Virus record (IMG/VR): IMGVR_UViG_3300025645_000491
Span: 1-22,832 of that record
DNA: 22,832 nt
Source of the DNA: a virus
Reading direction: 5' to 3' (one strand)
Numbering within the stretch: position 1 is the first letter of the stretch; each line of letters starts with the position of its first letter. A model generated the notes under the pieces. It made no database searches, was not told the origin of the DNA, and saw only the letters and a list, made by a program, of their open reading frames with translations. This document shows, piece after piece, positions 9,399 through 22,832 of this stretch. The position numbers and the translations under genes are program-made.

Positions 9399-12300
9399 AT
9401 GGCAACTTATGAATACAGGGGTAAAACGATAACGGCCCCCCTTACTATTGAAAGTAACAAGCCTGCTGAAACAGCTGAAACTGTTTCAATGAAGCAGCAA
9501 CGAGTTACAAGTAGTGGTCAACGTTGGGAATTAGAGTTTGAAGTTGAAAGCATGAATGGCATTACAGATGGAACAGCTGATGTAGGGGATTTCCTTGCTC
9601 AGTCTGTTCTTGGCCATACGAGTGATACAGGCGAAGAAATGATAATGCCCCAAATTACTAATAATTTAGGGGTAACTAATGACTTAACCTTATCAGTTGA
9701 AACAGAGAAAGAAGTTACAGAAGCAGCAGAAATTGGAAGCAGCTTTGTTAAATTTGGTAATTTGTCTTTTGGAAACGATATACCAAAAGGTCTTTTTGTA
9801 CAAATGGAGGGGGATGATAAAATTTATCTTACTACTGCAAAGACTATCGGTTCGGTTCAAACCTTAGATAGTACCACAGCAGATGCTACTTTTACTGATT
9901 TCTTTGCTAACGACACAAACTTACCTGCTCACACACCTACTACAGACAACCCTCCTCGAGTTGGTACATCTCAGTTAGCTGCTATGCGAAACTGGGTATC
10001 AGGTACTAACTATGAGATAGATGATAGCGCAAGAGGCTCGGACGGAAGACACTACTTGCTAAGTGATGATAGTAACGATGGAAACAATAACCCAGTATTT
10101 AATAACTCTTTCGACGGCAACGGCACTGAGGAATGGGACTTAATTTTTACAAAGGATATTTCTGGGACAAGCATTATTGACCCGTCAACAGTAAATATAA
10201 AAGATCAACCAATGGCAGCAGCACCGAGGGCTTACTATAGAGAAGATACCCAAGGTAACTTTTTCGTAGGAGATGTCGTACAAGATAATCGACAAGTATT
10301 TAAGTGCTTAACAGATACTACTAGTAAACCCTCTGTAACCCCTGCTAATTGGGAGCTTCTTGCAGATGGTAAGCTACCAATTGCGCATGAAACTTTTAGT
10401 TGGGTTCTTGCTCCATACGTTGTTCCGTTCTTTGATAGAGATAATGATGACAATTCTCTAGACGCTTATGACGACACCCTCTCGTATACTCAGGGCGATG
10501 AGGTAACTCATCTGTTTGCTCCCTGGAGAGCTAATGCTGCTATCGCTGCGGGGGCTACAAATGCTCCGGGATTAAATGCTGCTTGGGAAATCCTTACAGG
10601 AGGGTTCAACTCTTTTTATGATGATAAACAGAGCTATATGAGCTTTATGTGTAGAAAGGCAAATGTAAACTCTACCGCATTTCCTGCAGGGGTCACTAAA
10701 ACATTAGCCAAAGGCCTCGGACAAATAAATGCAGTGACTCAAACAAGCTCCACTAATAAGTTTGAAGAAGGACAGGTATTTTTTGGGTCTGGAAGTGGCT
10801 CTGGTATAAACAACGGCTATTCTGCTGGCATTGCTAAATCCTATCCTTTCGTATGTATATTAGCCCACGAAACCTCAGAGAGAATAGATATAAATCAAGT
10901 TCTTGTTGACATCCAAAGTTGGACGTATGACGCAGACTTTGTGTATCTCTTTGGGGGCAACAGATTTAAATGCTTAGTTGCAACCGCAGAAGGCCCAGAC
11001 CGTCGACCCGAACTTTGGACTCAGCTTACATCGGTTCTGAATGAAGACTTTAACGATGATTATATTGTAGGATCCAAAGGGTATTATAGTGAGGGTTTCA
11101 ATACTGTTGATTACAACTACCAAGAGATATATGGAGGCACTAAATCAATAACTAAAAACAAATATTTCAAGGCTATAACTTTTGAACCTTGGTGTGATAC
11201 CTCCCCTTATGAAGAATGGGACATCGCAATGGACGATGTTGATGGAAACTTCTATCAGGTGAAAAAGGGAGCTACTCCTCGTATTGGACTTAGGCCCGGG
11301 TTAGACGCAGGAGTGGCTGGCGTATGGACTACTTCGCTAAAGACCGCGTTGTCTTCCTTGAATGAGTTTCAGCCGGAGGATAATATACTAGGCCCGACTA
11401 TCGATATAACTATCGGTAAAGCAACAGATACTGATTCAATTCCCTACTATGCTGCTTATATCTCTTACCAAGATGGACTGTATGACTTTAATTCAAGCCT
11501 AGGTACTGCTGGATGGCGGCGAGACGCGCCGAGCGCATTCGCTTATTCTTCTGTTGAATGGTATACTATTCCTAGTACCTATACCCAAGATAGTCAGTCA
11601 GTTTGGGAGTATACTGAATATGGTAGAGGAGCAAACGCGGCATCGACCGCCGGAGCTAGAGGAGGGTTAATAAACGACCCCTCCAGCCTCGCTTGGGAAT
11701 CGCAGATAAAATCAAGCTATCCTACTACTCTCCCTGACGCAAGTGAATACTCTGATCTGTGGCGATTTCGTAGAGCTGTATCACAAGTTAGCGGACCGAC
11801 TTACACTAAGCCGCTAAACTTAAATGCACTTCCGCCGACAGACAGAGGTGGTATTCAGTATGAATTAGTAATTAACTCAGGTAGAACTGTTAGCGATCCT
11901 AAATTTGTTTTCCAACTAAATTCAGTAGACACTAGTTGTATATGGGCAGCGCCGCCTGTACTATTTAACACTTCAACGACTATGACCAAGACGGAAGTAA
12001 TAGAAAAGCTTATGAACGAGAGCCTTTCTAATGTTAACTATAATTATGGCAGCTCCAATAATGCCTCCAGTACATCAACTTTTGGTAGGATACTACCTTG
12101 GGACAATACCGCCATGCCTACTAGGTTTCAAAGGGTATTGTATGATAACTTAATCTGGAAATCGACAAGGTTAAGATCAGCAGGGGTAGTTCCGGGTACA
12201 AATGCCGATTACTGGGACATAGAAACGATTCAGGCACCGCCTTGGAAGAGTTCCGTATCTTATCCTTATAGGTCTATCGTAACTTATAATGGAAAGCAAT

Positions 12301-13220
12301 ATACAACTAGTTTTAATATTAATGCACCGACGCCTACTTTAGGAATTACGCCTGTTTTGGATCCGAACTGGTATATTAACCGTAATCCTGAAACTCTACT
12401 TACTTATACTTCTAGTGTAGATTATGGAATAAACCAGAGAGTAAATTCAGGGACGAACAGGAGTCTTGTTTATAGAGCAATAAGAGCTACTAAGGGGAAT
12501 TATCCTCCTACTAGTCCTTTAGATTTTGAATTAGAGGTTAGAGATCCTTGGGTTTTAGGAACAACCTATTCCGCAGAAGATTTAGTAACCTTTGCTGATA
12601 CAGGACAAGTCGGTTCAGTTTATAGAGCAATAAGATCTACTACTGGCGACCAACCAGATGAAAGCCCTTTGGACTGGGCTAACGAGACACTAATTCCCAA
12701 CGACTTTTCTATAAATTTTCACTCATTTGCTGATATAGAAAATGATAGGATTATAATAACTTTACAAGACCCTGCGAAAAGAGAAAACGGTAACGCTGCC
12801 GCGAACACTTTATTGTACCCTCTAAGCTTAGCAACGGCAAGTTCTTTGTTTACACTAAGACCCCTAACTACCGCTACTTCATCAAATGATGATGACTTGT
12901 ATTGGAACCAGCAATGGAAAATAGGTGCCACTACGGTTGGAGGAACTCCGGGTTACGTAAAGAAAGGGTTGGTAACTAGGCAGTTTGAAGAGAGTCGAAC
13001 TGACCCTAGGTTTAATGGAACTGGACCGGGAGAAGTTAATGGAGAAATAACAATTTATCCTCCGTTAGTAAAGGCCAAGGCTACTACAAGTAAGATTAAA
13101 AACTCAAATGAAACAACTTTAAAATACTTTGTTAACACCTCTAATATAGTTGGAATCAGGTATGTAGACGGTGTATTAGCAAGCGCTGGACGCACTAAAA
13201 TTTATGAAAAATTAATATAA
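9399..13220 (+). CDS. Large tail-tip protein, paralogue 2 with many putative glycan-binding modules (1273 aa)
   Basis: This is a longer paralogue of the preceding gene product, sharing the MATYEY/GQRWELEF start, the GDDKIYLTT, CILAHETSER, AITFEPW...FYQVKKG and LWRFRR...PPTDRGG blocks, and the C-terminal ITIYPPL...YVDGVLASAG end. The extra length comes mainly from inserted 40-50 residue modules of the pattern W-x(3-5)-Y-x(2)-G/N-D-x-V ... Y-x-A ... W, which resemble CBM5/12-type carbohydrate-binding repeats. Likely copies lie near residues 198-251, 278-322, 357-400, 501-543, 947-994, 1003-1047 and 1048-1097; the last two are a recent tandem copy. AAAGGAG precedes the ATG. The protein is probably a receptor-binding or surface-scanning part of the tail tip. 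No catalytic motif is seen. The carbohydrate-binding call is by pattern and needs profile support. Confidence 0.65.
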   Translation: MATYEYRGKTITAPLTIESNKPAETAETVSMKQQRVTSSGQRWELEFEVESMNGITDGTADVGDFLAQSVLGHTSDTGEEMIMPQITNNLGVTNDLTLSVETEKEVTEAAEIGSSFVKFGNLSFGNDIPKGLFVQMEGDDKIYLTTAKTIGSVQTLDSTTADATFTDFFANDTNLPAHTPTTDNPPRVGTSQLAAMRNWVSGTNYEIDDSARGSDGRHYLLSDDSNDGNNNPVFNNSFDGNGTEEWDLIFTKDISGTSIIDPSTVNIKDQPMAAAPRAYYREDTQGNFFVGDVVQDNRQVFKCLTDTTSKPSVTPANWELLADGKLPIAHETFSWVLAPYVVPFFDRDNDDNSLDAYDDTLSYTQGDEVTHLFAPWRANAAIAAGATNAPGLNAAWEILTGGFNSFYDDKQSYMSFMCRKANVNSTAFPAGVTKTLAKGLGQINAVTQTSSTNKFEEGQVFFGSGSGSGINNGYSAGIAKSYPFVCILAHETSERIDINQVLVDIQSWTYDADFVYLFGGNRFKCLVATAEGPDRRPELWTQLTSVLNEDFNDDYIVGSKGYYSEGFNTVDYNYQEIYGGTKSITKNKYFKAITFEPWCDTSPYEEWDIAMDDVDGNFYQVKKGATPRIGLRPGLDAGVAGVWTTSLKTALSSLNEFQPEDNILGPTIDITIGKATDTDSIPYYAAYISYQDGLYDFNSSLGTAGWRRDAPSAFAYSSVEWYTIPSTYTQDSQSVWEYTEYGRGANAASTAGARGGLINDPSSLAWESQIKSSYPTTLPDASEYSDLWRFRRAVSQVSGPTYTKPLNLNALPPTDRGGIQYELVINSGRTVSDPKFVFQLNSVDTSCIWAAPPVLFNTSTTMTKTEVIEKLMNESLSNVNYNYGSSNNASSTSTFGRILPWDNTAMPTRFQRVLYDNLIWKSTRLRSAGVVPGTNADYWDIETIQAPPWKSSVSYPYRSIVTYNGKQYTTSFNINAPTPTLGITPVLDPNWYINRNPETLLTYTSSVDYGINQRVNSGTNRSLVYRAIRATKGNYPPTSPLDFELEVRDPWVLGTTYSAEDLVTFADTGQVGSVYRAIRSTTGDQPDESPLDWANETLIPNDFSINFHSFADIENDRIIITLQDPAKRENGNAAANTLLYPLSLATASSLFTLRPLTTATSSNDDDLYWNQQWKIGATTVGGTPGYVKKGLVTRQFEESRTDPRFNGTGPGEVNGEITIYPPLVKAKATTSKIKNSNETTLKYFVNTSNIVGIRYVDGVLASAGRTKIYEKLI
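12403..12690 (+). repeat. Tandem 150-nt module duplication inside the 1273-aa tip gene
   Basis: Two neighbouring modules encode VYRAIRATKG and VYRAIRSTTG. The DNA stretch GTTTATAGAGCAATAAGA occurs at 12468 and again at 12618, exactly 150 bases (50 codons) apart, and the surrounding codons are similar. This is the freshest-looking copy pair among the putative carbohydrate-binding modules and points to growth of the array by in-frame tandem duplication. Confidence 0.7.
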
Positions 13221-13229
13221 GGTAATAAT

Positions 13230-14051
13230 ATGAAAAGCACACCCACAGTAATTACAGACGCAATAGATTTGGGTCGATTTGAAATGTTCGTTTTAATTGA
13301 CGTTATATTTAAAGAATCTGGTTTGAATTCTAATGGAAACCCTGCTGACAATTGGTCTATTAATAATACTTATCCCGTAGGTGAACATGTGCTATACCGT
13401 GGAGAGCGCTTTAAAGCCTTACAGGAAAACACAGGAGTCGCCCCTGTTGTAGGGGGCGGCACTGATGCTAACCCGGATACTACTTGGCAAGTTATGTCAT
13501 ACCACTTCACTGATCTCGCGGGAGGACTCCCTACTAAACTAAATGGAAACGTAGGGTATCCTGCTTATTCTAGGAACAACGGGTTGAGTGAGTATTCACC
13601 TCCCCAATTAACAACTGTGTTAGACCGAGAGGTTTATCGATTACAGTTTACAGATCTTAGCGATAAGTTTTTACAAGATGTAACAGTTCGTAGTTCAATA
13701 GGTGGAGAGCTAACAGTGCGTATGGGGGTAAATCCCGTATATTCTGATTTAGACATTGAGACTACTTACAACGGAGTTACCCAGCCTAAATTCTTTAATG
13801 ATTTAGATATCTTATACAAAGGCCGAATAGATGGTCTTTCTGTAACAACTGATTTTGGCAGTGGTAGCAAGGAATTGGTTATGGAAGGCTCCTCTCCTTT
13901 TGCGGATTTAGACTTAACTATAGATCGTGAAACATCTAAAAGATCTCAAGATAATGAAAAACTCTCACCTACAGACACATTAATTGACACATGCTACAAT
14001 GAACTCTACGACTCTGTTAAGGGTGTTGAAGTTCGTTGGGGTAAAAAATAA
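13230..14051 (+). CDS. Tail-tip hub-type protein upstream of the J-like gene
   Basis: This 273-aa protein lies directly before the J-like gene, the place of the hub or gpL-type protein that links the tip ring to J. Its start is FEMFVLIDVIF, a short beta/hydrophobic region. Residues 40-89 form one putative carbohydrate-binding module (NNTYPVGEHVLYRGERFKA ... DTTWQVM), apparently inserted after the N-terminal strand. The C-terminus (DRETSKRSQDNEKLSPTDT ... VRWGKK) recalls the end of hub proteins of the DUF2163 style, which often finish near a 'WG'. It is not a plain lambda L protein: only one Cys is visible, so a four-Cys iron-sulfur site is absent. A short AAGGT ribosome binding site overlaps the preceding stop. 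The hub role is moderately likely from position. Confidence 0.55.
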   Translation: MKSTPTVITDAIDLGRFEMFVLIDVIFKESGLNSNGNPADNWSINNTYPVGEHVLYRGERFKALQENTGVAPVVGGGTDANPDTTWQVMSYHFTDLAGGLPTKLNGNVGYPAYSRNNGLSEYSPPQLTTVLDREVYRLQFTDLSDKFLQDVTVRSSIGGELTVRMGVNPVYSDLDIETTYNGVTQPKFFNDLDILYKGRIDGLSVTTDFGSGSKELVMEGSSPFADLDLTIDRETSKRSQDNEKLSPTDTLIDTCYNELYDSVKGVEVRWGKK

Positions 14052-14060
14052 GGAAATTTT

Positions 14061-17000
14061 ATGATATGGCCATTAATATTAGCTATTGTCTCTGTAGTTG
14101 TTTCAATTGCTGGAGCAATCTCAGCAGCAAGAGCGCAAAAGAAAGCCAAAGAAAACGCAGATGCCCGAAAGGGTTTTGAATTAGTTGTAAAAGGAGAACC
14201 TAGAACTCTACCTATTGCTTATGGTAGAAATAAAATTGGAGCAGTTATTACCGGGGTTAGGTTAAGTAGCAACTACTACTTCCCCGGTGCTACTAACGAT
14301 GGAGACAACGTTCCATATTACAACGCTCAAGGCGATACAGGAGCTGCATTAGGCGGCACGGTGTGGTATAGAAATGCCTCTGATCGTTCAATGGCTGAAA
14401 ACATTAGCCCTAACTTATCAAGAAATAAAAATAACCAATTTCTTTTTGTACAATACGCTATTTGTGAAGGCGATATAGAATGTATTGGAGACATAGAAGT
14501 AGATGAACAAAACTGGAATGCTACAGAACTAGCATACGGTCAACGTATTCACACTTATAATAACCATGCAATAGGCAACTTCGAAGCTATTGAGCCTTGC
14601 GCAGATCCACTTAGCGTAGCTAATAACTTTCCTACAGGAAATATCTTTAAGAACACTGCTTATGCTGTTGGGGCTTTTCGATTAAATCGTGATGACTACC
14701 AGTACTTCGGTGTCCCTGAACCTCAGTTTTATGTTTTAGGAAAGAAAATAAGATATTATGATACAAATGGAGTCGGTGCGTTCGGATATTCCAATAACCC
14801 AGCATGGGTTCTTTATGATTACCTTACTTCTGATTATGGTAGAAACTTATCAGATGATGAAATAGATTTTGCAAGTTTTCTAAATGCTGGCACAGTATGT
14901 GATACACCGGTTTCCTTTGCAGATAACACTGCAATTATACATAGGCAGGGAAGAGTATGGAAAAATTGCACCCAGCCAGAGCCGATGTCCGGTCAAGTTA
15001 GAACTAGGACAGTAAGTCAACGAGAAGGGCATACTAACAACTTTGGGCTCGTGGCGCTGTTTGGTTCACAAACAAATGACCCTAACACCGCTGTTGACAG
15101 TCGATTTGCCTACTTAGGAAAAGCAAATTCCGTATTTTCTGGAGTAGCTTCAGGTAATCCAGACTCTCTTGCTGTTAATACCACTAACCCTCCTGCTAAT
15201 TTTAATGAAGTTACAAAGATACTGGTGCCTATATACACAGGTGGTGGCGTTAATCCTGCTCTTAATGATTGGCAAGGTATCTTTGGTAATGCAACCGCTG
15301 GTGCTCCTCCTAGTTCTGGTTATGTATACGCCTTCAATAAACTTAGCCCCACACTTGGTAATTATAGCTCCCTTATTTTTGAAATAACAGGGCCATCAAC
15401 ACAGAATACAAGCATCACTAATACTCTGGATCTTGATCACTGGGAAATGCCTGTTAATATAATAGAAGGTCGTTATGATCCATTTGATAACTATAGCACC
15501 CTGCCAACAAAAGAGTTTAACACTATATACAATTTAGACCAAACGCAGCTTACAGGCACACTTGTATTCACTAGTGATTTTCAGGAGTTTGTAGACGAAG
15601 GAGGATCAGCTCTCGTTAATGGTGACGAGTATATTTTTTACGATACTGAGGGAGTTAGATATTCTTTTATTTACGCAGATGACCCAAGCGATCTTCAGGT
15701 TAAAACAATTAGTTCAGACTTTAATACTATTACTCCATTTACCGGCATTTTGAGTAATATGAACCACTTAACTACCCTTATTAATAATACCTTAACTCTC
15801 TCTGCGGGTACCCCCGGGGTAACTGCTACAACCATGCCCCTCTATGAATGTAATATTTTAATAGACAGGTCTCAACCTGTTAGAGATAATGTTCAAGACA
15901 TTCTGATGACAATGGGACAAGCGGAGCTTATATGGTCTGAAGGCAAGTATAAGTTACAATTAGACTACCCCCGAACCTCTGCTGCTCCTAACCCTGCTGT
16001 AATTGAAAGTCCTGTTACTTCTATGGAAAGTTTGTTAAAGAAATCAGGTTCTTTTAAAGTTACATCAAGCAATTTAGTTAGAGAAACCATCAAGGTTAAT
16101 TACGCAAAGGCTACTGAAAGATACAATCAAGCAACAGTAAGATACCACGATGAAGCACAAGACTTTGCTAAAAGTTCAGCCGTATGGCCTGAGAAGAACT
16201 CTGCTGAATACGAGCAGTACTTAGCGGAAGATAGTAACCAACCGTTGACAACTAGCTTTTTGCTTGAAGGTATAACGGATGCTTACCACGCTAAAGCACG
16301 AGCGGAACAAATGGTTAAGGCTTCTAGATCACTAGCTACTTTTGAGTTTGAATGTGATATCTCTGCCTATAGATTAGAGCCGGGTGACTTTATCACAATT
16401 GATCCTGATGTAATTGGTATTCCTGAAGTAAGGAAATCCCTCGCTGCAGCTGGCGGCGTAGAGGCGCTTCGTGATGTCGTAGTAAAAGTACAGAGTATTA
16501 AAATTACTCAAGTATATACTGTTAGAATATTAGCTACTAAGTTTAACTTTACGGACCTTGTATTTGCTACGCCTACACCTTTAGTTGCGAGTTTCCCTCG
16601 CCATGCTGATTTTGTTATTGTAAGCACGGATGCCCCAACTGTAGTTTCTGACGATGATAACCGTACAGCAGCTATTAGTTTCTCAACAGACTATAATTCA
16701 ACTGAGGTTGAGCACTTCATGATAGAAAGGGCAGGACTAGATGCGGCAGGAACTATACCTGCTGACTTAACCTCTTTACTATGGGAACACGTAGGCTCCG
16801 TAAAACCTGCTCCGGAAGCTAGTGTAGCAAGCTACACTGACTTTTTGCCTTTAAACGCAGTTAAAGTAATTTATCGTATTAGAGCAGTTACGGGAAATGG
16901 ACGTAAATCTCCTCCTAGCCCGATTAGTGCAATACAGACTTTTACTGCTCTTGAAATAGCAGATACTATAGATGCGGATCTTGAACCTGCCGTTGTATCA

Positions 17001-20000
17001 CTAGTCTCCGATGCGTCAGGGGTAGTTCCCCCTGCTTCAGTAGTAACCGCAGCTAATGCCGTTACTGTAACAGTAGTTGCTTCTGGAGCTAACTTGACTG
17101 AAGTAGTAGACAGAAGCGCAACATTAATTCCCGGTCAGTTTAAAGTCAGTAATATAACTCAAACTGCTGGTGCATTTACGGGTGGTACTCCTAATGCTGA
17201 TGGTATTAACTTTGATCCCATTACCGCTTTCTCTGCATTACTGACCACTGCTACTCGTACCTATACGATTCAATTATTGCCTTTAAAAAGAACTATAGTT
17301 CAAACTGTAACTCGCACACAAACTTGGAATAAGGTTACTCCCGGTTCTACGCTAGATATTTCAGTAGACCCGCCAGCTATCGTATTCCCTTCGGATGCTA
17401 ATGGAGTGGTTACCTCTTACGTAGATACTACAACTACCGTTGCTGCTACTATTAATAGTATTGGACTTACACAAGTAGACCCTACTACACCCGATGGCAG
17501 TTTGTTAGATGAGCAGTTTAAATACACTGTAGCTACTGTCCCTGATGTATTAGGCGGCGGAGGTCAAGAACAAACAGAAGGTGTTGCATCAACAGGTAGT
17601 TTTAACCTTTCAACTCTTTCTGGAGCAATGGGAGATGTACCCCCTCCACCTCGTAGATTTAAGTTTGACATCACTAGTATTATAACAGGCCCAACTCTTC
17701 CAGCTCAAAGACCGCTTATAAGCGACCTTATTAGTAACCATTCTAGTACTAATAAATACTATGTTTTTGGTTATTGGCTAGATGACATCACGTTGCTCCC
17801 TACTATTCTAGATGATGCTACAACTACTGACGAAGACAGAAGTCGTCTTTTTGATATTTCTGTGTTATTAGGGCAGGTCTATAATGGCAACACTTTAAAA
17901 TTTGGATTTTTTTATAGACAAGGTGGTAGTACTCTAGTAGCAGACCAAAGGTCTTTAACTGCTAATTACTCAGTAAGCAACGTACATAGCGTTTCTACCG
18001 TACCTGCTGCTGGTGTAACAAAGCCACCAAATTGTACTACCTTTAAAACTGTATACTTTACCTTAACGGGCTTAACTGACACTCCTGTCAAGAATGTTTT
18101 TTCACAGGATGCAGCGAATGACGTTTGGGTAATAGAAACACCTACTACGCAAGCTCCTGCTTCAACTGATAGGATTGCGGGTTATGCGAGTGTAAAAGCT
18201 CTTGTTGAGATAGAAACTCCAATTACTCAATTCCCTAGTGATGTTGATAGGATTGTACGTACCTATACTGTTACTGCTAAACCGCAAGGTGCAGGCATAG
18301 TAACTGCTATTAAAACTCAGATTCTTAGTAAGTCTAAGGATGGTTCTGGAGGACTTACACTAGACTCAGTAGTAACCCCCGGAGTAGTACATTTAACCGC
18401 TGATGCTAGTGGAGTAGTTGCTGGTGCTACAGTAACTGCCGCAGCTAATGCTACTGCGGTTACCGTATCTTCTGATGGCGTTAGTCTACAAGAAGTAGGG
18501 CCAACTGTAGATTTAACAGCGGGTCAGTTTAGGGTCCGTAATATTCTTGATGACCCTACTGATGCTTTTATTGGAGGCAGCACTACTGTTGTTGAGTCTC
18601 TTGTAGGAAGTATTCCTAGTGCTGGCGCTGCTCCCTCCATTTCTACTAACCAAGTGCGTTGGAGAAGTGACTACGCTACATTTAGTACTGCTGCAGCCCT
18701 ACTCAGTAGCCCAATTAACCCTCCCGTTCAGAATTACTCAATAGGCTCAGAGGAGGGTAAAGGCGCTCTCGGTAGAATCTTTTCTTATAGAAATCAGCCT
18801 GATTCTAATTTCAGCACTGGATTTATGGATTTTAGATGGGCAGGTGGATTTAACTCTCCTACTTCTACTACAGCATCGGTATTAGCCCAAATAGCCTTTA
18901 TGAAGACTGTGTTTGTAACAGGTACTACTTTTGAGATGGTAGTACAAGCTCAAAGTAGCAGTACCAAAACAGGAACTGTGACCTGCCGAGTAGAAGCTAT
19001 ATTATCACTAGATGGTAATACTCTTCCTACTCCTATAAACGAGTCAGTAATTTGTGCGCAGTTTTCTATAAGTGCCTTCTCCCCTTCAGCAGAGGCCACT
19101 GATAGTGGTTCTATCACTAGCGTAGAGTCAATAAGCACTACAGTCACGGCAACAACCTTTACTCCTCCTACTGGGTTTTCTAGCACAATAGATAGCGCAA
19201 TAAGGACTTTTGAGATTGAAGCCCTCCCTGTAGGGAGCCCTAACGGCACTATTTTTGACTTAAGCAGAACCCAAACATGGTCCAAGTCTATAGCGGGTGA
19301 TACCTTAGACGTTAATGTGACCCCTGCTTCCATAGTATTAGCAGCGGACTCTTCGGGCAACGTAGCAACCAATACCGGCGGTATCCCTGACACTGGCACT
19401 GTTGTTTCAGTGTATGCTAATGGCACAGATTTAGCTGAGAAAGAGTCAGGGGCAACCCTTGCTGGTGGAGACTTTAACTATACTGTGGCTGATACTCCAA
19501 CTGGGGTTATCACTGAAGGTTTAGTAGGTGCTGGACCAATAACTCCTGGACCTGCACATTTTGACAACCAAGACTACCAACCTCTAGACCCTTCACCTAA
19601 TAACGGCTTCGTGTTTCAATTCACCACCGCTACTTCTAACTTTGACAGACCTACAATGGCTAGCATTTTGGCTAATACTGGAGGTACTTCGTACTCCCTA
19701 GATTTTAAAACTTGGGTTGATGCGGCAGGCGTGCCTACTTTAGACACATCTCAAGGTACTGAGAAACAAACGATTGCTAGGCTTTTCTTTGATTCGTTTT
19801 TTGTCACAGGTAAAAAGCTGGAAGTAATTTTTGCGGGTGACTCTCTTTCCGGTATTACAAGACAGCGGGTCAAACATCAGTGCGTTATTGGTACAGTGCA
19901 AAGAGTAGAAGTAACTAGAAACAGCCTAGGGCCTACGGGTTCTGTAGGTGAAGACTCACTACGCTTTACCTTAACACCTACAGGAACTGGTGTCGATGTA

Positions 20001-20402
20001 GGAAGTAGAACTCCAAGTACTGACATAGTTAGCCAACTCTTTTCAGTACAAGGCTCTGCATCTCTTATTACAGGTTTTGCTGATGGTACTGCCTCAGTGT
20101 CTCGCGTTTACAGTGTAGTATCAAAACTTAATGCCAACGCTAGTGAAATTACTACTCTTAAAACTCAAGTAGTATCTAAGGCATCAGCTGGTGCTACAGG
20201 AGCTCAAGGGCTTCCGGGATTACTTAGTTGGGCATCAGGTACTGACTATGCTGTAGGTAGTCTTGTAGTCTCTTTACCTACTTCCTCAACATCGGCAGGC
20301 ACCTTTTACTGTACAACAGCAGTAACGGGCAGCCCCGCCAACACTACTAGGCCCGAGAATCTTTCCGCTAATTGGCAACAAATCGGTGCATCATTTCCAT
20401 AA
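14061..20402 (+). CDS. J-like host specificity / central tail tip protein
   Basis: This 2113-aa protein is the central tip protein that forms the trimeric tip and contacts the receptor. It starts with a hydrophobic segment (residues 3-23) and KGEPRTLPIAYGR near residue 50. J-type landmarks follow: FVQYAICEGDIECIGDIEVD near residues 130-149, NPAWVLYDYLTSDYGRNLSD near 248-267, an IDRSQPVRDNVQDILMTMGQAELIWSEGKYKL block near 605-635 and a YRLEPGDFITID block near 770-780. A fibronectin type III-like domain spans about 858-961. Beyond it are four related Ig-like repeats starting near residues 974, 1097, 1434 and 1748, alternating with unique beta-rich domains. The end has a short GATGAQGLPG motif near 2045 and a final putative carbohydrate-binding module at about 2054-2110. 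The N-terminal half is conserved tip scaffold; the repeat half is probably the variable receptor-binding part. AAGGAAA precedes the ATG. Confidence 0.9.
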   Translation: MIWPLILAIVSVVVSIAGAISAARAQKKAKENADARKGFELVVKGEPRTLPIAYGRNKIGAVITGVRLSSNYYFPGATNDGDNVPYYNAQGDTGAALGGTVWYRNASDRSMAENISPNLSRNKNNQFLFVQYAICEGDIECIGDIEVDEQNWNATELAYGQRIHTYNNHAIGNFEAIEPCADPLSVANNFPTGNIFKNTAYAVGAFRLNRDDYQYFGVPEPQFYVLGKKIRYYDTNGVGAFGYSNNPAWVLYDYLTSDYGRNLSDDEIDFASFLNAGTVCDTPVSFADNTAIIHRQGRVWKNCTQPEPMSGQVRTRTVSQREGHTNNFGLVALFGSQTNDPNTAVDSRFAYLGKANSVFSGVASGNPDSLAVNTTNPPANFNEVTKILVPIYTGGGVNPALNDWQGIFGNATAGAPPSSGYVYAFNKLSPTLGNYSSLIFEITGPSTQNTSITNTLDLDHWEMPVNIIEGRYDPFDNYSTLPTKEFNTIYNLDQTQLTGTLVFTSDFQEFVDEGGSALVNGDEYIFYDTEGVRYSFIYADDPSDLQVKTISSDFNTITPFTGILSNMNHLTTLINNTLTLSAGTPGVTATTMPLYECNILIDRSQPVRDNVQDILMTMGQAELIWSEGKYKLQLDYPRTSAAPNPAVIESPVTSMESLLKKSGSFKVTSSNLVRETIKVNYAKATERYNQATVRYHDEAQDFAKSSAVWPEKNSAEYEQYLAEDSNQPLTTSFLLEGITDAYHAKARAEQMVKASRSLATFEFECDISAYRLEPGDFITIDPDVIGIPEVRKSLAAAGGVEALRDVVVKVQSIKITQVYTVRILATKFNFTDLVFATPTPLVASFPRHADFVIVSTDAPTVVSDDDNRTAAISFSTDYNSTEVEHFMIERAGLDAAGTIPADLTSLLWEHVGSVKPAPEASVASYTDFLPLNAVKVIYRIRAVTGNGRKSPPSPISAIQTFTALEIADTIDADLEPAVVSLVSDASGVVPPASVVTAANAVTVTVVASGANLTEVVDRSATLIPGQFKVSNITQTAGAFTGGTPNADGINFDPITAFSALLTTATRTYTIQLLPLKRTIVQTVTRTQTWNKVTPGSTLDISVDPPAIVFPSDANGVVTSYVDTTTTVAATINSIGLTQVDPTTPDGSLLDEQFKYTVATVPDVLGGGGQEQTEGVASTGSFNLSTLSGAMGDVPPPPRRFKFDITSIITGPTLPAQRPLISDLISNHSSTNKYYVFGYWLDDITLLPTILDDATTTDEDRSRLFDISVLLGQVYNGNTLKFGFFYRQGGSTLVADQRSLTANYSVSNVHSVSTVPAAGVTKPPNCTTFKTVYFTLTGLTDTPVKNVFSQDAANDVWVIETPTTQAPASTDRIAGYASVKALVEIETPITQFPSDVDRIVRTYTVTAKPQGAGIVTAIKTQILSKSKDGSGGLTLDSVVTPGVVHLTADASGVVAGATVTAAANATAVTVSSDGVSLQEVGPTVDLTAGQFRVRNILDDPTDAFIGGSTTVVESLVGSIPSAGAAPSISTNQVRWRSDYATFSTAAALLSSPINPPVQNYSIGSEEGKGALGRIFSYRNQPDSNFSTGFMDFRWAGGFNSPTSTTASVLAQIAFMKTVFVTGTTFEMVVQAQSSSTKTGTVTCRVEAILSLDGNTLPTPINESVICAQFSISAFSPSAEATDSGSITSVESISTTVTATTFTPPTGFSSTIDSAIRTFEIEALPVGSPNGTIFDLSRTQTWSKSIAGDTLDVNVTPASIVLAADSSGNVATNTGGIPDTGTVVSVYANGTDLAEKESGATLAGGDFNYTVADTPTGVITEGLVGAGPITPGPAHFDNQDYQPLDPSPNNGFVFQFTTATSNFDRPTMASILANTGGTSYSLDFKTWVDAAGVPTLDTSQGTEKQTIARLFFDSFFVTGKKLEVIFAGDSLSGITRQRVKHQCVIGTVQRVEVTRNSLGPTGSVGEDSLRFTLTPTGTGVDVGSRTPSTDIVSQLFSVQGSASLITGFADGTASVSRVYSVVSKLNANASEITTLKTQVVSKASAGATGAQGLPGLLSWASGTDYAVGSLVVSLPTSSTSAGTFYCTTAVTGSPANTTRPENLSANWQQIGASFP

Positions 20403-20416
20403 TACAAATAAACAAC

Positions 20417-20440
20417 GGGGTCCGTGTGACCCCTTAGTTT
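20417..20440 (+). terminator. Intrinsic terminator after the J-like gene
   Basis: A perfect 6-bp stem (GGGGTC 20417-20422, GACCCC 20428-20433) with a 5-nt CGTGT loop is followed by TTAGTTT. It lies 14 bases after the J stop and 28 bases before the first oxygenase gene. The T-tract is broken by AG, so termination may be partial, letting some transcription through to the fibre cassette. Confidence 0.65.
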
Positions 20441-20468: not shown

Positions 20469-21062
20469 ATGCGACAATCACTATATATCATAGATGACTT
20501 TTATGAAAATCCAGACCAAGTGCGAGAACAAGCACTAAAGATGCACTACTTTAAAGCAGGACACGGAAACTATCCCGGAGTCAGAACTGACCCCGTTAGT
20601 CCCCACGACTCTGAAGTAACAAAGAACTACATTCAAGACCATATTTTAAAAGAACAGATTACTTGGTGGCCTACTGAAGCTAATACAGCCTTCCAGTACA
20701 CCATTGAAACAGATACATCTTGGATTCACCACGATGCTACCACTTGGGCAGCTGTGTGTTATTTAACCCCTAACGCAGAGAAGGAAGCTGGAACAGCAAT
20801 CTTTCGGCATAAGGAGACAGGGACACACTGGTGGAACCCTGATGACGACTCTACGGACTTTAACCAGTCTGAGGGTCTCGGTAATCCTATGAACAACCCC
20901 CTCTGGGAGCCTATCACGGAAGTCAGCAACTTGTATAATAGACTTGTGCTCTACAGAGGCAATCTGTATCATAGCTCTATGAAGCCCGGATTCGGGGATT
21001 GTTTAGAGAACGGTAGATTGTTTCAAACATTTTTCTTTAACACAGCAAGGGGATTGAAGTGA
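20469..21062 (+). CDS. 2OG-Fe(II) oxygenase-like protein, DUF6445 type (copy 1)
   Basis: This 197-aa protein looks like a small jelly-roll dioxygenase that uses 2-oxoglutarate, O2 and Fe(II) to hydroxylate a substrate. The expected metal and cosubstrate residues are visible: H87-x-D89 in WIHHDATTW, a distal H168 in NLYHSS, and R183 in NGRLFQTFFF to hold the 2-oxoglutarate carboxylate. The conserved stretch YLTPNAEKEAGTAIFRHKETG (about 98-118) and YNRLVLYRGNLYH match the DUF6445 style. The start FYENPDQVREQAL is typical of the same group. AAGGAGA precedes the ATG. It overlaps the second copy by four bases. The substrate is unknown; its place between tip and fibre genes suggests a virion protein rather than a metabolite, which is an inference. 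Confidence 0.75.
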   Translation: MRQSLYIIDDFYENPDQVREQALKMHYFKAGHGNYPGVRTDPVSPHDSEVTKNYIQDHILKEQITWWPTEANTAFQYTIETDTSWIHHDATTWAAVCYLTPNAEKEAGTAIFRHKETGTHWWNPDDDSTDFNQSEGLGNPMNNPLWEPITEVSNLYNRLVLYRGNLYHSSMKPGFGDCLENGRLFQTFFFNTARGLK

Positions 21063-21625
21063 GAGAAGAACCTATAATGATGGTGTTCGATAACTTCTTT
21101 CACGACCCCGACGCAATAAGAGCCGAGGTGCTAACAAGAGATTTCGGTGATGGAGGAAGCAACTTCCCTTCCCAGAAGGCGGAGCCTGAACCTCCTCACT
21201 ACCAATTACATATTAAAAAACACATAGAAAATAGAATTTTGGGACGACCGATTACTTACTGGGAAAAGAGCTACAACACTTGTTGGCAATACTCAGTAGA
21301 GGGTCAAAAACAACCTGTTCATCACGACCACGGAAAGTATGTCGCGATAGTTTATCTAACGCCTAATGCCCCCGTATCAGCAGGAACATCCTTATATCAA
21401 CATAAAGAAACCGGTATCTCAATGTGGGATGCCAATAATCCTGATACTTACCCTAACAAACTTAACACAGGTCCAGACGAAAGCACTTGGACTCAAGTTA
21501 TGTTTTTTGGAAACATTTATAACAGACTCATTGTCTTTAATGCCCAGCATTATCACAAAGGCACTGGAACATTTGGTTCCAACAAAGAGAATGGCAGACT
21601 TTACTGTACATTTTTCTTTTCATAA
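21059..21625 (+). CDS. 2OG-Fe(II) oxygenase-like protein, DUF6445 type (copy 2)
   Basis: This 188-aa protein is a diverged paralogue of the preceding one. It keeps the full active-site pattern: H88-x-D90 in VHHDHGKY, distal H166 in QHYHKGTG, and R180 in NGRLYCTFFF. It also shares YLTPNA...AGTSLYQHKETG and YNRLIVFNAQHYH. A GTG start at 21059 overlaps the upstream TGA (GTGA), and AAGGGGA lies just upstream, so the two genes are likely co-translated; an alternative ATG at 21077 would remove six residues. The pair could act on two different sites or form a heterodimer. No sign of decay is seen in either copy, which argues that both functions are kept. Confidence 0.75.
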   Translation: MREEPIMMVFDNFFHDPDAIRAEVLTRDFGDGGSNFPSQKAEPEPPHYQLHIKKHIENRILGRPITYWEKSYNTCWQYSVEGQKQPVHHDHGKYVAIVYLTPNAPVSAGTSLYQHKETGISMWDANNPDTYPNKLNTGPDESTWTQVMFFGNIYNRLIVFNAQHYHKGTGTFGSNKENGRLYCTFFFS

Positions 21626-21699: not shown

Positions 21700-22179
21700 A
21701 TGAGGATTTCAGGAATAGAAAATTACATCGGAGGTGCGGACAACATTCAAGCACTCTCTTTAATCCAAGGCGAACAAAGAATATTAAGCGGTCAAATCTT
21801 AAACCCAGATGGGACGGCTATCGACATTACTGATTTCAAGGTTACTGCCAAAGTAGATTTTTATTTAGCAGACGTAGTAGTTACAGCAAGGTCAATGTCT
21901 ATCTCACAATTGGTTCAAGACCCTGAACCGAAGATTCACACTATCACAGCAGCCAAGACAAACAATACGGAAGGTAAGTTTTCTATTACAATACCTAAAT
22001 TATTCTACGTAAACAATCTTGATGCGCCACTTGAAATTGACACGAATTTAACTACAAACGTGCCTATAGCAGTTATGTACATCGATTACAATGTAGATGA
22101 ACTTCTCGACACCTCTTCGATCCGCTCAAGCCGGATGGTGTTTGTCATAAGACGTGGCTCACCCTCTGTTGGGCTTTAA
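21700..22179 (+). CDS. BppU-like tail/baseplate structural protein
   Basis: This 159-aa protein has an N-terminal region (QGEQRILSGQILNPDGTAIDITDFKVTAKVDFY, about residues 23-55) that resembles the N-terminal Ig-like domain of BppU-type baseplate and fibre-attachment proteins, where a polypeptide extension is followed by 'dltg' and a beta strand. The rest is beta-rich and ends with IRSSRMVFVIRRG. AGGAG sits at a normal distance from the ATG. It precedes the collagen-like fibre gene by 10 bases, so it may be the adaptor that mounts that fibre on the tail tip. No enzyme motif is visible. The family link is by pattern only. Confidence 0.55.
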   Translation: MRISGIENYIGGADNIQALSLIQGEQRILSGQILNPDGTAIDITDFKVTAKVDFYLADVVVTARSMSISQLVQDPEPKIHTITAAKTNNTEGKFSITIPKLFYVNNLDAPLEIDTNLTTNVPIAVMYIDYNVDELLDTSSIRSSRMVFVIRRGSPSVGL

Positions 22180-22189
22180 GGGTTGAATT

Positions 22190-22832
22190 ATGTCAAATTT
22201 TAATGTTGAATTTACAGAAAATACAAACTTCAAGGTTAGTTTTGAAGAAGACAACTTTGAAGCGAGCTTTGAAGAAACCGTAGACTTCCAAGTCAATCTG
22301 GAACAGGATAATTTTGAAGTCAGTTTTCAAGAAACAGGAAATCAAGGACCAAGAGGTATTCCCGGTGACATCGGTCTTCAGGGCCTTATAGGTCTTCAGG
22401 GCGACATCGGTCTCCAAGGGGCCATTGGTCTTCAGGGTCTTACAGGAGGCATCGGTCTTCAGGGCCTTATAGGTCTTCAGGGCGACATTGGTCTTCAGGG
22501 AGACATTGGTCTTCAGGGTCTTACAGGCGACATCGGTCTTCAGGGCCTTATAGGTCTTCAGGGCGACATCGGCCTTCAAGGAGACATTGGTCTTCAGGGT
22601 CTTACAGGCGACATCGGTCTTCAAGGCCTTATAGGTCTTCAGGGCGACATCGGCCTTCAAGGAGACATCGGTCTCCAAGGCGACATCGGTCTTCAGGGTC
22701 TTACAGGCGACATCGGTCTTCAGGGCCTTATAGGTCTTCAGGGCGACATCGGCCTTCAAGGAGACATTGGTCTTCAGGGCCTCCAAGGCGATATTGGTCT
22801 TCAGGGCCTTATAGGTCTTCAGGGCGACATCG
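22190..22832 (+). CDS. Collagen-like tail fibre protein (5' part, runs off the window)
   Basis: An ATG at 22190 opens a frame that stays open to the end of the window, giving at least 214 residues. Residues 3-49 consist of five short beta-strand repeats of the type NFxVxFxE. From residue 50 a strict Gly-X-Y tract runs without interruption to the window end, starting GNQGPRGIPGDIGLQG and then built from GLQ, GDI, GLI and GLT triplets. Such tracts in phage fibres form trimeric stalks. Proline is almost absent (one in X, one in Y), lysine is absent and Asp is the only acidic residue, which is unusual for a triple helix. The receptor-binding head would lie beyond the window. A weak AAGGG ribosome binding site overlaps the upstream stop. 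It was easily missed because no stop is reached. Confidence 0.75.
   Translation, partial: MSNFNVEFTENTNFKVSFEEDNFEASFEETVDFQVNLEQDNFEVSFQETGNQGPRGIPGDIGLQGLIGLQGDIGLQGAIGLQGLTGGIGLQGLIGLQGDIGLQGDIGLQGLTGDIGLQGLIGLQGDIGLQGDIGLQGLTGDIGLQGLIGLQGDIGLQGDIGLQGDIGLQGLTGDIGLQGLIGLQGDIGLQGDIGLQGLQGDIGLQGLIGLQGDI
22196..22336 (+). repeat. Five-fold beta-strand repeat at the N-terminus of the fibre gene
   Basis: Five units begin at 22196, 22226, 22253, 22283 and 22310, with spacing alternating 30, 27, 30, 27 bases. Each encodes an N/D-F-x-V/A-x-F/L-x-E pattern (NFNVEFTE, NFKVSFEE, NFEASFEE, DFQVNLEQ, NFEVSFQE). Alternating hydrophobic residues suggest short amphipathic strands, probably the virion-attachment or trimer-forming base of the fibre. 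Confidence 0.75.
22364..22832 (+). repeat. 81-nt higher-order Gly-X-Y coding repeat (minisatellite)
   Basis: Blocks of nine Gly-X-Y triplets (81 nt) start at 22364, 22445, 22526, 22607, 22706 and 22787. The block at 22607 carries one extra 18-nt pair of triplets (99 nt). Most blocks read GDI GLQ GLI GLQ GDI GLQ GDI GLQ GLT. Within each block the basic unit is 18 nt (GGTCTTCAGGGC plus GACATC or CTTATA). All unit lengths are multiples of three, so gain or loss of units keeps the frame. The array is cut by the window end. Confidence 0.9.

Follow-up and report, generated by a model that had tools for sequence, protein, structure and literature searches.

Why would a phage keep two oxygenase genes of one family, back to back, at the junction between its tail tip and its tail fibre genes? 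Marine phages encode few unexplained enzymes more often than 2OG oxygenases, which are usually ascribed to DNA repair or host metabolism. We addressed the question in an IMG/VR record of 22,832 bp, the whole of which was analysed and is called the window below. The features that matter for the argument are these:

14061-20402, plus strand: lambda-J-like central tail fibre or tip protein of 2113 aa (PF13550, 2.3e-11; PHROG 31 'central tail fiber J', 3e-26)
20417-20433, plus strand: GC-rich hairpin GGGGTC-cgtgt-GACCCC with a weak T tract, between the J-like gene and ox1 (fold calculation and comparison with relatives)
20469-21062, plus strand: ox1, ATG start, 197 aa, putative DUF6445 2OG-Fe(II) oxygenase (PF20043, 2.8e-20; PHROG 1644, 6.9e-38)
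21059-21625, plus strand: ox2, GTG start, 188 aa, divergent putative DUF6445 2OG-Fe(II) oxygenase (PF20043, 6.9e-9; PHROG 1644, 3.2e-29)
21700-22179, plus strand: conserved protein of 159 aa between ox2 and the fibre gene (ORF; 65-69% identity to relatives)
22190-22831, plus strand: start of a collagen-like fibre gene, inside which the contig ends (PF01391, 3e-27; GLQ, GDI and GLI triplets)

The ORF calls, an alignment and the Pfam and PHROG matches bear out what a preliminary description of this DNA had reported, namely two intact oxygenase ORFs between the J-like and the fibre genes, with the complete H-x-D...H...R set in each and a GTGA overlap joining the end of ox1 to the start of ox2. 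The GTG start of ox2 is sound, because relatives L003 and L005 have an ATG at the same position (and thus an ATGA overlap). Both proteins match Pfam DUF6445 over their full length and above its curated gathering cut-off of 24 bits (73.7 bits for ox1, 36.4 for ox2), and an NCBIfam search returned no match for either. Against L003 the dN/dS is 0.18 for ox1 and 0.10 for ox2, so that both copies are maintained by purifying selection; between the window and L005 synonymous sites are saturated, yet 80-82% of residues are kept in the two proteins, and conservation of the pair is far beyond chance. The two are 37% identical in protein sequence and were earlier called paralogues, which holds at the level of the family, whereas a direct duplication was neither supported nor rejected by tree and AU test (p 0.475). 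Their nearest relatives in the tree differ (L009 and L061 for ox1, L076 for ox2), and by the same methods a DUF6445 pair in L062 is a true local duplication. The late terminator that was said to precede the pair is at best tentative, since the hairpin is kept in L003 and absent from L005, and its folding is unexceptional (z -1.6).

The H-x-D...H...R set comprises H87 (20727), D89, H168 (20970) and R183 (21015) in ox1, and H88 (21320), D90, H166 (21554) and R180 (21596) in ox2. All four ox1 positions are invariant in 26 aligned relatives, as are N157 and R158, and ox1 and ox2 are predicted, almost certainly correctly, to bind Fe(II) and 2OG. The AlphaFold model of ox1, on which the fold comparison was made (pLDDT 91.8), is a double-stranded beta-helix with the prolyl-hydroxylase fold, as in OGFOD1, the HIF prolyl hydroxylase PHD2, a Pseudomonas P4H and the PBCV-1 collagen P4H, and it aligns with solved 2OG oxygenases at Z 12.5-14.2 over about 155 residues and 2.7-3.8 A. 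A PDB sequence search with ox1 returned nothing, and a profile built from the 26 relatives found no PDB chain with E<=1. Together with the model, these residues support the view that ox1 and ox2 are intact putative 2OG/Fe(II) oxygenases of the prolyl-hydroxylase fold.

What, then, stays with the pair? In the window and six related contigs ox1, ox2, the 159-aa protein and the collagen-like fibre occur in the same arrangement, and the survey of co-occurrence that had been proposed finds the fibre with the pair in 7/7 contigs reaching that point. Upstream, L005-L008 carry other tail genes, coding for a spike-like protein of 765 aa and a tail chaperone-like protein of 218 aa, and it is thus the fibre, not J, with which the pair moves. 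In L003 and L004 a 293-aa GT2-like gene lies exactly between ox1 and ox2, overlapping each of them by 4 bp; its product matches PF00535 just under the cut-off (E 2.8e-4) and the PDB glycosyltransferase 6p61 with E 0.005. No glycosyltransferase adjoins ox1 or ox2 in the window, and G003 has no GT2 match. The major capsid protein of a 34-kb relative shares 38% identity with its counterpart in DSS3_PM1 and DSS3_VP1, which are phages of Ruegeria, and this places the lineage among marine siphophages. The 159-aa protein, for which Pfam, PHROG and NCBIfam give no confident family match, is a candidate fibre or adaptor protein; a supposed kinship with the small protein that follows DUF6445 in L090 was dropped (hhalign probability 1.4%). 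Elsewhere in the window (9399-14051) CBM_5_12 is matched by two tail proteins, of 1273 aa (1.2e-9) and 273 aa (weakly, below the cut-off), and by their sequence these modules suggest glycan recognition at the tail tip.

We then consider the family at large. A profile scan of viral contigs yielded 386 stretches encoding DUF6445 relatives, and the best 80 of the 386, with the earlier loci, formed 56 clusters at 85% identity. In several of them DUF6445 is fused on one chain to a glycosyltransferase or a methyltransferase: GT17-DUF6445 (L105), GT25-DUF6445 (L092), GT2-DUF6445 (L113), Methyltransf_24-GT2-DUF6445 (L089), FkbM-DUF6445 (L102) and Methyltransf_24-FkbM-DUF6445 (L125). In L113 the GT2 portion of the fused protein is similar to GmaR (E 5.6e-5), a protein that glycosylates flagellin. 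The link also holds for separate genes: GT2 makes up 13/88 immediate neighbours of DUF6445 vs at most 1/72 of the genes four to five places away (Fisher p 0.0003-0.003), and on 12 of 26 non-redundant contigs DUF6445 has a GT2 gene within 1.5 kb, where random placement gives a mean of 2.0 (p<=2e-4). Collagen-like or fibre genes adjoin DUF6445 in L079, L090, L093, L085, L132, Pandoraea-type genomes and DSL-LC02, in the last of which its neighbours are genes for a collagen-like protein and a mannosyltransferase as well as FkbM. Independent tandem DUF6445 pairs occur in L062, P-SSM2 and L110, where the pair follows a GT25-FkbM-GT2 protein; sequence searches of the PDB found no kin for the GT25 part or for the GT parts of L110. 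These fusions and neighbourhoods give DUF6445 a testable partner, the glycosyltransferases, and in the window's lineage a testable place, the tail fibre.

Two further arrangements were seen along the way. On the T4-like contigs L089, L113, L084, L118 and L132 a GT-DUF6445 or FkbM-DUF6445 fusion lies directly upstream of gp13/gp14-neck-like proteins, in many cases accompanied by more GT2 and 2OG genes, in what appears as a recurring decoration island. In S-CREM1 (L050 58058-68651) about eight overlapping genes of 2OG-oxygenase type directly follow a tryptophan halogenase.

Considering these observations, our preferred reading, to which we give a probability of roughly 0.4, is that ox1 and ox2 covalently modify the phage's own tail or fibre proteins, with a virion protein as acceptor, and do so either with glycosyltransferases or alone. 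The two would be active, functionally diverged DUF6445 2OG/Fe(II) hydroxylases, produced together by translational coupling and late in infection, and their candidate substrates would be the collagen-like fibre or the 159-aa protein. Hydroxylation might be the end product, or it might open a decoration pathway whose next step is the addition of a sugar by a glycosyltransferase to, or beside, the oxidised position, the transferase being encoded between the two genes (as could be the case in L003 and L004) or fused to the oxygenase in some lineages. The genes themselves, the fold, the catalytic residues, selection, synteny, the statistical GT2 link and the fusions are observed, and from them we infer the catalytic activity, the late expression, the substrate and the order of hydroxylation before glycosylation; the recurrence of glycosyltransferase partners suggests a single decoration pathway that comprises both the oxidation and the addition of sugar. 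It is doubtful, in our estimate, that this extends to a general phage system of hydroxylation followed by glycosylation, in which DUF6445, often paired or fused to GT2, GT17, GT25 or FkbM, would prime collagen-like fibres or further tail proteins for sugar attachment at unusual positions other than proline.

Foremost among the candidate substrates, though unproven, is the adjacent fibre. Classical hydroxylation of collagen Pro or Lys was considered for it and rejected: in the repeats that are visible, the window gene being incomplete, the Y position is almost always Gln or Ile, so that textbook collagen hydroxylation is not the chemistry there. Pro stands at Y in 1/55 triplets of the window's fibre start, 0/152 in L005 and 1/142 in G002, and Lys in none. 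If the fibre is the substrate, the targets must be Asp, Gln, Leu or Ile positions, or parts outside the repeats. The proposal of the preliminary description, hydroxylation of a virion or host surface protein, thus keeps the support of the fold, of selection and of the tail/fibre operon, finds no support, as discussed below, for specificity for structural modules, and had missed the link to glycosyltransferases; ordinary collagen hydroxylation is unlikely.

Those same glycosyltransferases could also argue against a role at the fibre, as their targets could be host polysaccharide or small molecules and not virions (PMC7824862). The enzymes would then act on sugars or glycans, oxidising capsule, LPS or a secreted metabolite as part of surface-polysaccharide or secondary-metabolite modification, as proposed for the cyanophage clusters described in that jumbo-phage survey, an account we regard as possible but rather unlikely for this pair. 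The neighbours of DUF6445 do include sugar-nucleotide dehydratases, epimerases, WbqC and FkbM methyltransferases, and in S-SSM7 and Sf-FS3 it lies within glycosyltransferase clusters, amid GT11/GT25 and UDP-glucose dehydrogenase genes. Moreover, the best Foldseek match of the ox1 model is HygX, a sugar-antibiotic oxygenase, and therefore the fold does not name the substrate; structural Z-scores are nevertheless better to protein hydroxylases. In the window's own family, however, no sugar-pathway gene stands near the pair except the GT2-like gene of L003 and L004, and the genes that always accompany it are those of the 159-aa protein and the fibre.

Cellular homologues bear on the same question. 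Among sampled Pseudomonadota genomes 30/398 carry DUF6445, and by hand count 21 of the 31 full-length, strong matches lie within 1.1 kb of Trp_halogenase, apparently a strong and undescribed functional pairing; no paper joining Trp halogenase with SapC and TonB-dependent was found in the open-licence literature. The family is therefore not dedicated to glycosylation, and the halogenase neighbours can be counted on the side of sugar or metabolite chemistry. Separately, a conserved Pandoraea-type chromosomal cassette (L133:3696-8151, L167-L171) combines a collagen-like GXQ protein, a PP-loop protein, DUF6445, a protein of about 120 aa and a radical SAM enzyme, and has the look of a locus for modifying peptides or proteins.

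Modification of a host protein, EF-Tu or a ribosomal protein, in aid of takeover, as with OGFOD1/Tpa1 and Pseudomonas P4H, seems to us unlikely, even though the best VIA matches of the ox1 model are OGFOD1 (Z 14.2) and the P. putida P4H that was solved with EF-Tu (Z 13.4-13.7). Consistent with it, many DUF6445 homologues adjoin genes for UvsW, PhoH, ThyX, DNA polymerase or gp55, or sugar-nucleotide genes, and most lie outside structural modules by our reading of the neighbourhoods, which is not a formal count. Homologues found mostly outside such modules had been named beforehand as the outcome that would speak against a structural role, and specificity for structural modules is not supported. 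Against a host target stand the position of the pair in a late tail operon, its constant link to the fibre in this lineage, and the tie of DUF6445 to glycosyltransferases. The same scatter across many modules would fit mobile accessory genes that settled in a permissive site behind the tail-tip gene and whose function has nothing to do with the genes around them: in the siphophage L076, whose head protein is 57% identical to that of the window lineage, an ox2 orthologue (72%) stands by itself, with terminase on one side and portal on the other, and the GT2-like gene has been gained or lost between ox1 and ox2. We consider this improbable too, because seven contigs keep the position although their proteins diverge by up to 20% and synonymous sites are saturated, and because the association with GT2 is significant elsewhere. 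AlkB-like repair or demodification of nucleic acids, the older proposal for cyanophage 2OG oxygenases near uvsX/uvsY/uvsW (PMC2984593, PMC9146016), is very improbable here, for although some relatives adjoin UvsW-like helicase or gp55 genes, the best matches of the model are of prolyl-hydroxylase type with no AlkB entry among the matches listed, and the fusion partners are glycosyl- and methyltransferases.

How much of this is new? That marine phages carry multiple 2OG oxygenases is already published, as are the proposal of a role in DNA repair, folds of PHD type and clustering with glycosyltransferases and halogenase (PMC9146016, PMC2984593, PMC12774648, PMC7824862), and to call the locus an undescribed system, as had been done, was too strong. 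New here are the fusions, the statistical link to GT2, a glycosyltransferase gene lying between ox1 and ox2 and, in a siphophage lineage, the conserved placement on the fibre side. In the open-licence literature we found no paper naming DUF6445 and none joining prolyl 4-hydroxylase, collagen-like and phage tail fiber, and the sets searched held no DUF6445 member with a described function. Within DUF6445/PHROG 1644, ox1 and ox2 share length, motif and fold with the family, and the window differs in having two divergent tandem members at the tail-tip/fibre junction. The PHROG 1644 label 'minor coat protein' finds no support here, the enzyme fold argues against it, and it appears misleading; PHROG 274, 'DNA endonuclease V', appears to contain 2OG oxygenases too and is probably mislabelled as well. 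Both names have propagated widely, among others into RefSeq records of cyanophages such as L046 and L047. The phage oxygenases of prolyl-hydroxylase fold in PHROG 61 and the EGLN3-like proteins (PMC12774648) belong to the same superfamily, are likewise distributed in marine phages and often number several per genome, but form a different sequence family. The cyanophage clusters with glycosyltransferases, halogenase and 2OGFeDO (PMC7824862) also hold DUF6445 (S-SSM7, Sf-FS3, and L062 with a Trp halogenase), whereas the pair in the window belongs to a siphophage's tail-fibre operon, which no cluster of this kind surrounds.

Further parallels come from collagen-modifying enzymes. The PBCV-1 vCPH (5c5t) has a similar predicted fold (Z 12.5) and a viral collagen-like context, as here, but identity is about 13%, and vCPH acts on a Pro-rich sequence whereas the window's fibre repeats are almost without Pro. 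Mimivirus L230 is the precedent for a viral hydroxylase-glycosyltransferase that acts on collagen (PMC9614988). No sequence kinship between the PLOD oxygenase domain and DUF6445 was detected (Pfam reports only DUF6445, and the 26-relative profile matched no PDB chain at E<=1). The fusions in the distant homologues L092 (GT25-DUF6445) and L113 (GT2-DUF6445) resemble L230 and the animal PLOD/LH3 lysyl hydroxylase-glycosyltransferases in carrying a glycosyltransferase domain and a C-terminal HxD...H...R oxygenase on one chain, and a collagen-like protein lies near DUF6445 in several loci; the window differs in that its pair is unfused and its collagen triplets lack Lys. If virion proteins are indeed hydroxylated and glycosylated by phage enzymes, this would reveal that bacterial viruses also control host range at a post-translational level, and a system that hydroxylates and then glycosylates, if true, would alter adsorption or fibre stability with an architecture comparable to that of PLOD/LH3 and mimivirus L230.
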